Assembly: GCA_903896045.1 (NCBI GenBank)
Contig: CAITWD010000013.1
Coordinates: forward strand, 1 to 46,313
Direction of reading: 5' to 3'
Length of the DNA stretch: 46,313 nt
Source: an uncultured Actinomycetes bacterium
GTDB taxonomy: Bacteria > Actinomycetota > Thermoleophilia > Miltoncostaeales > Miltoncostaeaceae
Positions 20,028 through 46,313 of the stretch are shown piece by piece. Position 1 is the first letter of the stretch. Every line of letters begins with the position of its first letter. Under the pieces are notes generated by a model, which was not told the origin of the DNA, did not search any database, and was given only the letters and a program-made list of their open reading frames with translations. Made by a program: the position numbers and the translations under genes.

Positions 20028-20100
20028 TGGAGCATGGCGGAATCGAACCGCCGACCTCGAGTGTGCGATACTCGCGCTCTCCCAACTGAGCTAATGCCCC
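20028..20100 (-). tRNA. tRNA-Ala (anticodon CGC)
   Basis: A complete 73-base cloverleaf on the minus strand. The acceptor stem GGGGCAT pairs with ATGCTCC (one G-U), the D-arm is GCTC...GAGC, the anticodon stem CGAGT/ACTCG encloses ATCGCAC with anticodon CGC, and the T-arm GGCGG-TTCGATT-CCGCC is canonical. The discriminator is A. CCA is not encoded; a TTTTT run follows immediately and may be part of the terminator. It reads the GCG codon. Confidence 0.95.
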
Positions 20101-42504: not shown

Positions 42505-44091
42505 ATGCCATCCACACTGCGCCGCTGGGCGATCATGCCGGTGTTGGGATTCGGTGTCGCATTGATCATCGTCGACTCGACGATTGTCAATGTGGCATTG
42601 CCAAAAATTGTCCCCGCGCTCAACATGAATATTGCGGCTGCTGAGTGGGTGAACTCTGCCTACTCACTCGTCTTTGCCGCGCTGCTTGTCGCTGTTGGGG
42701 CAATGGCCGATCGCTCCGGGCGTCGGCGCACATTTGTGATTGGCGTGGTGGTCTTTGCGATTGCCTCACTTGTTGCAGGGGCGGCAACATCATCAGGGAT
42801 GATGATCGGCGCGCGCATGCTGCAAGGAGTGGGTGGGGCGATGATTCTGCCGACTTCCTTGTCGCTGGTGAACGCAAACTTTCGCGGCAAAGACCGTGCG
42901 ATCGCCTTTGGTATTTGGGGCTCGGTGATCGCCGGTGCCGCCGCCCTTGGACCGCTTCTGGGCGGGTGGCTCACCACCTATGTCTCATGGCGCGCAATCT
43001 TTTTGCTGAACCTTCCGGTCTCGCTTGCGATCGTGATTGCCGCCGTGGTGCTGATCACAGAATCCAAAGACCCCGATGCCCCAGGCCTGCGCGATGTGGC
43101 AGGGGTGTTAATGGTCTCGTTTGGATTTGCGGCCTTGGTGTTTGGACTCATCGAAGGGCAGCACTACGGCTGGTGGCATGCAAAGGCCACCTTTTCGGTC
43201 GCGGGTCACGATTGGCCAGGCAGCAGTTCTCCGGTGCCATGGGCATTCGGGGCGGCGGCGGTGCTGCTTGTGGGGTTTGTGGTGCACCTTGTGCGCGCGA
43301 CCCGTCGCGGGCGCCCGGCATTGATCGATCTGGAACTGTTTCGATTGCGCTCATTTCGCTGGGGTGGCCTGACAATTCTGATCGTCGCCTTGGGGGAATT
43401 TGGGCTGATCTTTGTGATCCCGCTCTTTTTGCAAAATGTGCTTGGACTTAGCCCTCTTGAGACGGGGGCGGCGCTGCTCCCGCTTGCACTCGGCGCCTTT
43501 GCGGCAGGAGGCCTCGCGGCCCCCTTGTCGACAAAGATCGGCGGGGTCGCCACCGTCAGGATCGGCATGGCGCTCGAGGCAATTGGGATCGCCGGCTTTG
43601 CGGTGGTGGTGACGACTCCAATGTCGGCGTGGAATTTTGTGTTGCCCTTGATGATCTATGGGCTCGGGGTGGGGCTTGCCACCGCGCAACTGACCAATGT
43701 GGCGCTCGCTGAGGTCCCACGGAACCGTTCGGGGCAGGCCTCAGGGGTGCAGTCGACACTGCGCCAAGTCGGATCAGCCCTTGGCACCGCGGTGCTTGGC
43801 ACGGTGCTCTCGATTGCCATTACCGCACATACCACCTCATCACTCGAGCACGCCGGTGTCGCCACCGCCGACGCCCAACATATCGCCGATGCGGTGCAGT
43901 CTTCTGCGGGCACGGTGCTCCCGAGTCTGCGGGCGGCTCCGGTGACACAACCCTTGTCGGGAGTGCTTGATTCCTCATTCGCCGATGCGATCACGACCGT
44001 CGGGATCGTGGCGGCAGCCTTTGTGCTGGCGGGCCTTGTGACCTCGTTCTTGATCCCCCGCGTACCGGTCGAGGCGACCGAAGAGCGCTAG
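42505..44091 (+). CDS. MFS exporter, DHA2 (EmrB/QacA) family, no. 2
   Basis: A 528-residue drug-export-type transporter with about 14 helices. Visible motifs: VALIIVDSTIVNVALP (helix 1 Asp), AMADRSGRRRTFVIG (motif A), GWLTTYVSWRAIFLLNLPVS (motif C and after), and a charged central loop (RATRRGRPALIDLELFRLRSF) separating the halves. It differs in detail from the exporter at 4535-5989. Its stop interlocks with that of ImmA (CTAG, 44088-44091). The promoter region carries a perfect palindrome, so expression is probably repressor-controlled and inducible; no regulator gene lies next to it. Confidence 0.92.
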   Translation: MPSTLRRWAIMPVLGFGVALIIVDSTIVNVALPKIVPALNMNIAAAEWVNSAYSLVFAALLVAVGAMADRSGRRRTFVIGVVVFAIASLVAGAATSSGMMIGARMLQGVGGAMILPTSLSLVNANFRGKDRAIAFGIWGSVIAGAAALGPLLGGWLTTYVSWRAIFLLNLPVSLAIVIAAVVLITESKDPDAPGLRDVAGVLMVSFGFAALVFGLIEGQHYGWWHAKATFSVAGHDWPGSSSPVPWAFGAAAVLLVGFVVHLVRATRRGRPALIDLELFRLRSFRWGGLTILIVALGEFGLIFVIPLFLQNVLGLSPLETGAALLPLALGAFAAGGLAAPLSTKIGGVATVRIGMALEAIGIAGFAVVVTTPMSAWNFVLPLMIYGLGVGLATAQLTNVALAEVPRNRSGQASGVQSTLRQVGSALGTAVLGTVLSIAITAHTTSSLEHAGVATADAQHIADAVQSSAGTVLPSLRAAPVTQPLSGVLDSSFADAITTVGIVAAAFVLAGLVTSFLIPRVPVEATEER

Positions 44092-44603
44092 GGGGTCTCG
44101 GGGCCTCGGCTGAGGCGCAAATTAAACAGACGCCAGGTCATGGCCTGGCGTGAGACCGCAAAGGTCTCTGCGAGGATGTCGACATTGGCTCCGGTGACGG
44201 CAACCGCCTCATAGACATGTGGGGTCGGCATCAGGAGCTCCGCACCAAAACTATCGGCCTCGCGCTCGCGTAGATCGGTATGGGACTCCTCTGACACCGC
44301 GCGGCACAGGGTGGCGTTGGTGGTTCCGGTGCGCGCACCGCAGTGCACGATCCAATGACCAATCTCATGGGCGATCGTAAAGCGCTGGCGCTCGAGTGGT
44401 TCGTCGGCGTTGATGAGAATGAGTCGGTCGTGTGGGGCAAGGAGCCCCGATGCACCCAGATCGGGGGCCGCATGGACGCGCAGCCCTAAGAGGTCTTCTG
44501 CGATGCTGACTACCGGGACCGGAAGCGGGGTGCGATCGGGGTAGATCGCCTCATAGTCGACCAGGACATCAAGCGCGCGGCGGTCACCTGGGCGAGGCGG
44601 CAT
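44088..44603 (-). CDS. ImmA/IrrE-type metallo-endopeptidase
   Basis: A 171-residue zinc protease of the PF06114 family. HEIGH at residues 79-83 (FTIAHEIGHWIVH) is intact, and the third ligand is in REREADSFGAELLMP (Glu115/Asp117). Family members cleave an HTH repressor: ImmA cuts ImmR of ICEBs1, and IrrE cuts DdrO in Deinococcus. Here the gene starts on the last base of the upstream HTH gene (TAATG). The C-terminal helix FAVSRQAMTWRLFNL is a typical substrate-interaction region. Its natural target is therefore probably the HTH protein made just before it. Confidence 0.92.
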   Translation of the reverse strand: MPPRPGDRRALDVLVDYEAIYPDRTPLPVPVVSIAEDLLGLRVHAAPDLGASGLLAPHDRLILINADEPLERQRFTIAHEIGHWIVHCGARTGTTNATLCRAVSEESHTDLREREADSFGAELLMPTPHVYEAVAVTGANVDILAETFAVSRQAMTWRLFNLRLSRGPETP

Positions 44604-45187
44604 TAGGCAATCCCAAAGAGGGCGTCGAGGGTGATGCGTTCGGGATCGTCGTCGTTTTGGACGAAGGCGACCTCGATCTCACTCCGTGTGTCTGCCTTGC
44701 GGAAAATTGGCGTGTGGGAGGTGACGTGGGGCATCGATTCATCTGCGGTCGGAGCGCCACCAAAGGGCACGAGCAGCGTCGTCGGGACGCCCAAGATCTC
44801 GGCGAGCGCCGTCAGTACGCGGCGATCGATCCGCGAGGCGTCAAGCAGGCCCCCTTCAAGGCGCTGGTAGAGATCTTTTAGGTGACCGACCAATCGTTCA
44901 GGGATTTCGAGCGCGTCCTGCACGTGTGCCACCACCGCGTCGATGGTGAGATGGCGTCCATGACGCAGCGTCACCATCGGTGCGTCGCCGCGGGCCCAAG
45001 CGGTGAGGGCGGCAACGAGCTGTGCGTCAGGCATCGGGGTGGGTGCCAGGATGAGAAAGGCATCGATCATGCCCTTGAGTGCATCGGCATCTGATCCCGC
45101 GCGCACCAGATATGCAATGGGATCGGGATGCTCGCCGCGGTGGTAGCGCCCGGCAAACTCTTCAAAGAGTGATTCAGGGCTCGACAT
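44603..45187 (-). CDS. HTH (XRE-like) regulator, candidate anti-sigma partner
   Basis: A 194-residue protein. The N-terminal half is helical, with DPIAYLVRAGSDADALKGMIDAFL. The middle, VVAHVQDALEIPERLVGHLKDLYQRLEGGLLDASRIDRRVLTALAEILGVPTTLL, resembles a stretched XRE helix-turn-helix: a turn, the LYxRLExG recognition end and the LAxxLGVPxxxLL end. The last 45 residues are acidic and disordered-looking. It overlaps the sigma-factor gene by 14 bases and is followed by the ImmA gene. By position it should bind the sigma factor or its promoter and be the ImmA substrate; neither is shown. AAAGGA precedes the ATG at 45187. Confidence 0.7.
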   Translation of the reverse strand: MSSPESLFEEFAGRYHRGEHPDPIAYLVRAGSDADALKGMIDAFLILAPTPMPDAQLVAALTAWARGDAPMVTLRHGRHLTIDAVVAHVQDALEIPERLVGHLKDLYQRLEGGLLDASRIDRRVLTALAEILGVPTTLLVPFGGAPTADESMPHVTSHTPIFRKADTRSEIEVAFVQNDDDPERITLDALFGIA

Positions 45188-45761
45188 GGGTGTCCTTTGC
45201 GTACCGCTGTCGTAAACGATGAATGCACTGATAGACATTGTTTTCGCTGATGTCGAGCATCGCGGCGATTTCACGTCGATCGCGTCCCTCAATCATCAGG
45301 AGTGACATGACCTCACGCTCGCGCGGTGGGAGCCCATCAAGTGCATCATCGATCAGCTCGTTCCCGGCGACGATCTCGGCCGGGTCATCGGTGACAAGTG
45401 ATGTCGCGGCGTATTCACGTATCGCGTCGGTGGTGCCAGGCGACGGCGCAACGCCACTGGGAAGGGCGCGTTCGGTGGTCCAGCGGGAACGCCAGCTGCG
45501 CAGTGTCCAATCGGTGCGTTTGGCGACGACGACCCTGAAGGGCACCGTGTAGCGCTTGCCCCGCTCGAGTTCTCCAAGCAGGTGCATCATCGTCTGGTGG
45601 GCGACCTCGTAGTACTCATCGGTACGCAGCGCGAGACGCGCAACGATCTGTGGGTAGTAGGCAGCGATAAGGGTGACGTAGTCGTGGGCCTCAATCAGCA
45701 ACAGGTCCCGCGCGTCGGCGTCGACGTGTAGGCGATGCATCTGTGTGTCGTCAATTGCCAT
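45174..45761 (-). CDS. ECF-type RNA polymerase sigma factor
   Basis: A 195-residue sigma-70-family protein. The region 4 is clear at the C-terminus: DDALDGLPPREREVMSLLMIEGRDRREIAAMLDISENNVYQCIHRLRQRY. Region 2 is less typical but fits YVTLIAAYYPQIVARLALRTDEYYEVAHQTMMHLL and FRVVVAKRTDWTLRSWRSRW. No classical zinc-finger anti-sigma gene follows; instead the overlapping HTH and ImmA genes do. GGGA lies 4 bases before the ATG at 45761. Confidence 0.85.
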   Translation of the reverse strand: MAIDDTQMHRLHVDADARDLLLIEAHDYVTLIAAYYPQIVARLALRTDEYYEVAHQTMMHLLGELERGKRYTVPFRVVVAKRTDWTLRSWRSRWTTERALPSGVAPSPGTTDAIREYAATSLVTDDPAEIVAGNELIDDALDGLPPREREVMSLLMIEGRDRREIAAMLDISENNVYQCIHRLRQRYAKDTHVEP

Positions 45762-45994
45762 TGAATCCCGACCCTGCCACAACAGTGGCGAAATGCAACC
45801 CATCCGCAGCGGTACTGGGGGCGTGTCGCACAGCGATGTCGAGTCGAAATCGGGAGAGCTATGTCGTTATTATTGCGATTACAAAAAATTACGAAATCAA
45901 ATAGTGCTCAACTCCCCATTCGTCGAGCTTTTCGTGACTCGTGCCGTGCCGTGGTAGGTCAGGTGGGCGCGCATCGCGTCCGCTGACGTAAGAA

Positions 45995-46313
45995 ATGCCG
46001 GGTGTGGGAATGATGAGTCGGTGCACAACTGCATACGGGGGATCGTTGCGGGATCTGATCACACGGATTGAGATTGAGGAAGTGCTGATTGGCGGCGGGC
46101 TGACTGTCGCCCGGATCGTGGCACACACACCCTCGGAACTTCGCTACATCGGTCTTGACGCTGGGGTGCGCCACGGGGTGGACTTATATGAAGTCGGGGG
46201 TGTCGCACGACTGTCAGAGATTGTCGTCGACAACCCCGCGGCGGCAGATCTTTTGATCACACCCGGAACAATCGCGACGGGCGGGTTTTGCGACCGCATC
46301 ATCAGTCACCCCG
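45995..46313 (+). CDS. partial hypothetical protein, runs off the right edge
   Basis: An open frame of 106 codons continues to the end of the window. It starts at ATG 45995 (just after an in-frame TAA) or at one of the ATGs at 46010 and 46013. The visible part reads IEIEEVLIGGGLTVARIVAHTP, then ELRYIGLDAGVRHGVDLYEVGGV and LLITPGTIATGGFCDRII, a beta-rich, soluble pattern. I do not recognise it. It is divergent from the sigma-factor operon, so it may be under that sigma factor. Confidence 0.5.
   Translation, partial: MPGVGMMSRCTTAYGGSLRDLITRIEIEEVLIGGGLTVARIVAHTPSELRYIGLDAGVRHGVDLYEVGGVARLSEIVVDNPAAADLLITPGTIATGGFCDRIISHP

Follow-up and report, generated by a model that had tools for sequence, protein, structure and literature searches.

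Pairs of an XRE-type regulator and an M78 (ImmA/IrrE) peptidase, and pairs of an extracytoplasmic function (ECF) sigma factor and its anti-sigma factor, are the described systems closest to the locus treated here. In PBSX, a prophage of Bacillus subtilis, an XRE repressor, an M78 homologue and a sigma-like factor (Xre, XkdA and Xpf) belong to one circuit, the switch for the phage late genes. The known release routes of ECF sigma factors are redox change, membrane proteolysis, partner switching and phosphorylation. The locus under study is a three-gene module at the right end of contig C13 (CAITWD010000013.1) of an uncultured member of the Miltoncostaeaceae (assembly GCA_903896045.1, genome size 1.67 Mb), and the whole stretch of 46,313 nt that was analysed is referred to as the window. 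The module encodes an ECF sigma factor (P0001), a helix-turn-helix (HTH) protein (P0002) and an M78 zinc metallopeptidase (P0003), and the three genes almost certainly form one functional unit.

In the CapH–CapP pair, CapP cleaves CapH and single-stranded DNA (ssDNA) stimulates the cleavage, as summarised in PMC10233336; the PprI/IrrE peptidase of Deinococcus is also ssDNA-activated (PMC10904395). The present locus resembles CapH–CapP in that CapP is the closest characterised relative of P0003 by profile comparison and the middle domain of the HTH protein is predicted, from a weak match, to fold most like CapH, and differs from it in the ECF sigma gene that precedes the pair and in the additional acidic N-terminal domain and C-terminal LF motif of the HTH protein. 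No CBASS operon was found next to the module, either in the window, where a gene of the major facilitator superfamily (MFS) stands instead, or among the relatives' neighbours inspected. With DdrO–IrrE (PprI) of Deinococcus the locus shares an M78 peptidase, an XRE partner and DNA damage as the likely signal; unlike in that system, P0003 (171 aa, M78 match to residue 159) has no room for the C-terminal GAF-like domain of IrrE, the partner pairs with a sigma factor, and LexA is encoded in the genome. The ImmR–ImmA pairs of ICEBs1 and TnSmu1 likewise have adjacent XRE and M78 genes, whereas the module includes a sigma gene, its flanks are not conserved and no genes of integrative and conjugative elements were noticed. 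As in the RsrA (zinc anti-sigma, ZAS) and RseA/RsiW types of ECF sigma/anti-sigma pairs, the sigma gene is followed directly, often with an overlap, by that of a probable partner which would be destroyed or altered on a signal; in contrast to them, the HTH protein has no cysteine, zinc motif or family match, and release is proposed to occur by a soluble M78 peptidase and not by redox change or membrane proteolysis. PBSX differs in gene arrangement, the present module being one small operon around which no phage genes were noticed. No description of the sigma–HTH–M78 combination was found in full-text open-licence literature, although mention elsewhere is possible.

Components of the module

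All three genes were found on the minus strand, at the coordinates and with the overlaps of 14 nt (sigma/HTH) and 1 nt (HTH/M78) that the original prediction, made from the sequence alone, had reported (Table 1). Protein P0001 scored 49.1 bits against TIGR02937 (cut-off 42.9), thus passing the ECF threshold, and matched Sigma70_r4_2 with E=1.4e-12. Its AlphaFold model, compared by Foldseek, matched solved ECF sigma factors at E=7e-5, including SigL and SigH of M. tuberculosis and sigmaE of E. coli. Sigma2-like helices (residues ~5–99), a low-confidence linker (104–133) and sigma4 (~127–191) give the two-domain layout of ECF sigma-70 factors, without sigma3, and bear out the predicted identity. 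An alternative in-frame ATG at 45803 is possible. A scan of the genome contigs with P0001 gave no match.

The peptidase P0003 matched PF06114 with 63.1 bits (cut-off 22) over residues 57–159 and contains HEIGH at residues 79–83 (44355–44369), EREAD further on and Cys100; HExxH and a downstream Glu motif for zinc binding are the marks of the family. Among the M78 relatives, HExxH was present in 76 of 78 and an E..AN.FA-type motif in 73 of 78; a conserved cysteine was rejected as a general M78 trait, HExxH...Cys being found in only 54 of the 78. The best PADLOC model for P0003 was capP (86.8 bits), and the profile of the M78 family matched CapP (7t5t) in the PDB with E=1.8e-13, with IrrE also matched. 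Both the ImmA/IrrE assignment and the placement in a class of HTH-cutting proteases are upheld by these data, since the known substrates of CapP and IrrE are XRE proteins.

In its make-up, the middle protein departs from a simple XRE repressor. P0002 alone had no usable match in Pfam or NCBIfam and did not reach the Pfam cut-off for XRE-type (XRE/HTH_3) regulators, and weak matches to HTH_31 were obtained for 11 of 24 relatives (best E=3.9e-4). Its AlphaFold model (mean confidence, pLDDT, 78) and the family alignment show four parts (Table 1). The N-domain, which spans residues 4–65 in the model and alignment, has a net charge of -5 in the window protein and a family median of -8. For model residues 70–132, the best Foldseek match in the PDB was the N-domain of CapH (7t5u), a weak one (best E=0.48, prob 0.87), and further weak matches were 434 Cro (TMt 0.70), SinR and DdrO. 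An LF pair lies close to the C-terminus in 72 of 81 homologues and a looser xDxLF-type motif in 77. The label "XRE-like" of the original prediction stands tentatively, at the level of fold and of the weak HTH_31 matches in relatives, but finds no Pfam or NCBIfam match for P0002 itself, and the description has to be widened by the conserved acidic N-domain and C-terminal helix. P0002 contains no cysteine and hence lacks the HxxxCxxC zinc motif, which rules it out as a ZAS factor; the operon encodes no protein similar to zinc or membrane anti-sigma factors, in agreement with the earlier statement that an ordinary anti-sigma gene is missing.

At L005:2607-3333 (genome G019; also L035), the N-domain by itself (~78 aa) is encoded next to a second, diverged sigma gene, facing a complete trio; the two genes may be a duplicate undergoing decay or the minimal form of a sigma/anti-sigma pair. 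This single case (L005) of an N-domain without the HTH domain beside a diverged sigma gene hints that the N-domain is the part pairing with sigma.

Table 1. Location of the module genes, of the parts of the HTH protein and of the flanking features in the window.
Feature	Coordinates	Strand	Details
ECF-type sigma-70 factor gene, P0001	45174..45761	minus	195 aa from ATG 45761; family searches, model
HTH (XRE-like) partner gene, P0002	44603..45187	minus	194 aa; family alignments, model
M78 (ImmA/IrrE/CapP-like) zinc metallopeptidase gene, P0003	44088..44603	minus	171 aa; PF06114, capP, profile matches
P0002 acidic helical N-domain, residues 1-65	44993..45187	minus	alignment, model, charge count
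P0002 diverged XRE domain, residues 66-137	44777..44992	minus	LYQRLEGG corresponds to family motif YYHxLExG; Foldseek
P0002 linker, residues 142-177, predicted to be disordered; candidate region for cleavage	44657..44764	minus	pLDDT <50
P0002 C-terminal helix, ITLDALFG	44618..44644	minus	family motif D/E-x-V-D-x-L-F-x-G-G; pLDDT ~84
Region upstream of sigma	45762..46010		no inverted repeat, no CGTANNNT leaderless promoter element
MFS transporter gene (named by eye)	42505-44091	convergent with the trio	overlaps M78 gene end by 4 nt

The trio operon stops after the M78 gene, because the convergent MFS gene overlaps its end.

Conservation as a unit in Thermoleophilia

Homologues were sought in 299 genomes of the class, representing 114 genera. 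Relatives of the HTH protein were found in 66 genomes by protein search and in 77 by profile search, the latter in 36 of the genera, and include Gaiellaceae, Solirubrobacterales and metagenome-assembled genomes of Thermoleophilia. In the phylum beyond the class, a strong match was obtained in one sampled genome only (G373), and the HTH family is nearly confined to Thermoleophilia.

Of 81 HTH homologues whose neighbourhoods were extracted, 76 have the sigma gene immediately upstream in the same orientation. An M78 gene followed directly on the same strand in 51 and was adjacent but convergent in about 19 more; the remaining few homologues lie at contig ends or have the M78 gene 0.7–2.4 kb away. 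Order and strand were the same in about 30 loci, with overlaps mostly of 4 or 8 nt. The arrangement of the trio is far above chance, and the lack of a conserved order in relatives, named beforehand as an outcome that would speak against the switch, was not what was found. Since the strand of the M78 gene varies, the tighter sigma–HTH association marks these two as the core pair, as expected if the HTH protein acts on sigma. The proposal that overlapping genes keep the products in fixed proportion accordingly applies to sigma and the HTH protein but not to the peptidase.

Pairwise protein distances were correlated across the trio (r = 0.67–0.79; 13 non-redundant loci, 0 of 1000 shuffles), and dN/dS values of 0.06–0.55 for all three genes in six related pairs show that the trio is under purifying selection. 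In a tree of the M78 sequences, one clade united the same-strand peptidases with nine of the convergent ones, and about 12 other convergent peptidases were scattered among unrelated M78 sequences, both with modest support. This topology suggests that M78 genes were recruited beside sigma–HTH pairs more than once, independently, which would be hard to account for if the peptidase were incidental.

Flanking genes showed no conservation across genera, and conserved neighbours were for this reason rejected as target genes. An origin in a mobile element or prophage was also rejected: the only tRNA of the window is far away, at 20028, and phage genes were not noticed in those flanks that were inspected, though no systematic search was made. 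Degenerate duplicates of the trio, in which pieces of the sigma and HTH genes stand ahead of the M78 gene, occur at L042/L090 and L080 (G009). Several other genes lie downstream of the module in relatives. An AAA_21 (AbiEii-like) ATPase gene and a second short gene follow directly at L041:5778-6905, resembling a defence pair; ARPP-1 (PF20208) genes lie shortly downstream in two families (L040:6540-7400, L052:6645-7496 and, identified by eye, L051 after 5427); and a gene for a secreted DUF1996 protein about 100–140 nt past the M78 gene is kept within one genus (L048:1903-2940 and other g3 genomes).

Proposed mechanism and competing explanations

It is proposed that the HTH protein would be a soluble cytoplasmic anti-sigma factor, made together with the ECF sigma factor and keeping it idle, probably through the acidic N-domain, to which the XRE domain or the C-terminal D-x-LF helix would lend aid. 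As a sensor of the CapP/IrrE type in the cytoplasm, the M78 peptidase would probably be activated by ssDNA from breaks or stalled forks and would then cut the HTH protein, the likeliest site being the exposed linker or the vicinity of the XRE domain; the freed sigma factor would then transcribe a repair or stress regulon. As a whole, this model of an anti-sigma factor removed by M78 cleavage is given about an even chance. Cleavage of the HTH protein by the peptidase is considered likely on its own, and direct action of the HTH protein on sigma is slightly favoured. The switch of sigma factor, HTH protein and protease put forward in the original prediction gains partial support from the conserved order, the tight sigma–HTH pairing and the CapP/IrrE-type protease, with the qualification that co-transcription of the protease gene is not constant.

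Related loci add a connection with DNA breaks to that idea: of the five whose HTH gene has no sigma gene right beside it, four hold an extended operon. Here the order is sigma, a small open reading frame, HTH, M78, SbcD (Mre11-like) and SbcC (Rad50-like, by eye), at L172:3327-9275 (G373), L219 (G087), L222 (G191) and L245 (G162); the four genomes belong to four families, one of them of another class, and the SbcD and SbcC genes overlap by 4 nt in each. The small open reading frame encodes 132–152 aa, perhaps sigma2-like by eye, and the one tested had no Pfam match. The order M78–SbcD–SbcC was also found at L095, and at L089 the M78 gene is followed by an SbcD-like exonuclease gene and that of a long AAA ATPase. 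These SbcCD operons point to DNA breaks as the signal, and DNA damage is held to be a somewhat better than even assumption. For the window, which has no repair genes at the module, this reading is carried over from the relatives and from the CapP/IrrE family.

Five observations weigh against the proposed anti-sigma switch and its signal. The SbcCD linkage is absent in the window, where the convergent MFS gene follows M78. LexA is encoded in this genome, which makes the module dispensable as a general SOS regulator, and replacement of LexA was rejected as an explanation because LexA is present both here (G000) and in most genomes of the class. The module is missing from three further genomes of the genus (drafts, 81–92% completeness), which indicates that it is easily gained or lost. 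The presence of an XRE domain speaks in favour of binding to DNA. Finally, the sigma promoter of the relatives (TAnnnT, leaderless) is shared with housekeeping genes and gives no sign of autoregulation.

The foremost alternative takes the HTH protein for a DNA-binding repressor of the conventional CapH/DdrO/ImmR kind, acting on the promoter of the sigma operon or on target promoters; M78 cleavage would derepress sigma as the first gene and amplifier of the response, a role that the sigma-like Xpf has in PBSX. The XRE fold with CapH as best, if weak, Foldseek match is in line with it, as are the characterised M78 partners named in PMC10904395 and PMC10233336, which are DNA-binding XRE repressors. 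The element CGTANNNT also lies immediately ahead of the sigma start in 18 of 28 relatives, against 1.3 expected, and is kept in most of L004, L006, L009, L011–L019 and L021–L027. In the window, however, the upstream region contains neither an inverted repeat nor this element at the sigma start. CGTAAGAT, which several relatives have 6 nt ahead of a leaderless sigma start and which is carried also by a second broken trio copy elsewhere in G009, precedes alaS-, lysS-, rpe- and hppD-like genes as well, and TAAGAT alone is found ahead of accD-, tpiA- and rpe-like genes (all named by eye). The TAAGAT/TAnnnT leaderless element is therefore read as a housekeeping -10 element, and autoregulation by sigma through the conserved motif was rejected; the additional CG before TA at the module promoter of the relatives is conserved and is not accounted for by this reading. 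A repressor gene would, in addition, sit after its target sigma gene in 76 of 81 loci, and known XRE repressors have neither such an acidic N-domain nor a C-terminal LF motif. The XRE domain has a median net charge of 0 and an often acidic recognition-helix region, a weak point against DNA binding which, with three controls only, is uninformative, and charge was dropped as a measure of DNA-binding capacity. A conventional repressor is on balance regarded as the less likely reading, though a serious one and the strongest of the alternatives.

The constant sigma–HTH pairing with an XRE domain would suit a tether as well as an inhibitor, and the HTH protein might then be a positive co-factor that binds sigma and DNA and aids sigma at poor promoters, with M78 ending the response. 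This is judged improbable: in characterised M78–XRE pairs cleavage relieves repression, and joint housekeeping-type expression of sigma, its activator and the destroyer would make little sense. A toxin–antitoxin pair of M78 and HTH protein (Xre-COG2856 type) with an incidental sigma gene can practically be dismissed, since, even though XRE–M78 pairs are sometimes termed toxin–antitoxin modules (e.g., PMC10538038), adjacency to sigma is steadier than adjacency to M78, and data for ImmR–ImmA of S. mutans were not supportive of such a function (PMC10233336).

Possible significance for sigma factor control

The new element would be the coupling of an ECF sigma factor to an HTH switch under M78 control. 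In its fullest form, which is advanced only tentatively, the HTH protein, with its acidic N-domain, XRE fold and C-terminal LF helix, would define a new anti-sigma class that an ssDNA-activated M78 peptidase destroys, so that DNA breaks switch on an alternative sigma factor, in some lineages together with the SbcCD (Mre11-Rad50) nuclease of the same operon, in a pathway distinct from LexA/RecA and DdrO/IrrE. The module may thus be an undescribed DNA-damage alarm. If the anti-sigma model is true, ECF sigma factors would gain a new release route, cleavage by a soluble M78 peptidase; the reach of M78 proteases would extend beyond repressors to the control of sigma factors, and a large family of Thermoleophilia without a named function would be explained, for which the SbcCD-linked operons offer a direct and testable signal, namely DNA breaks.

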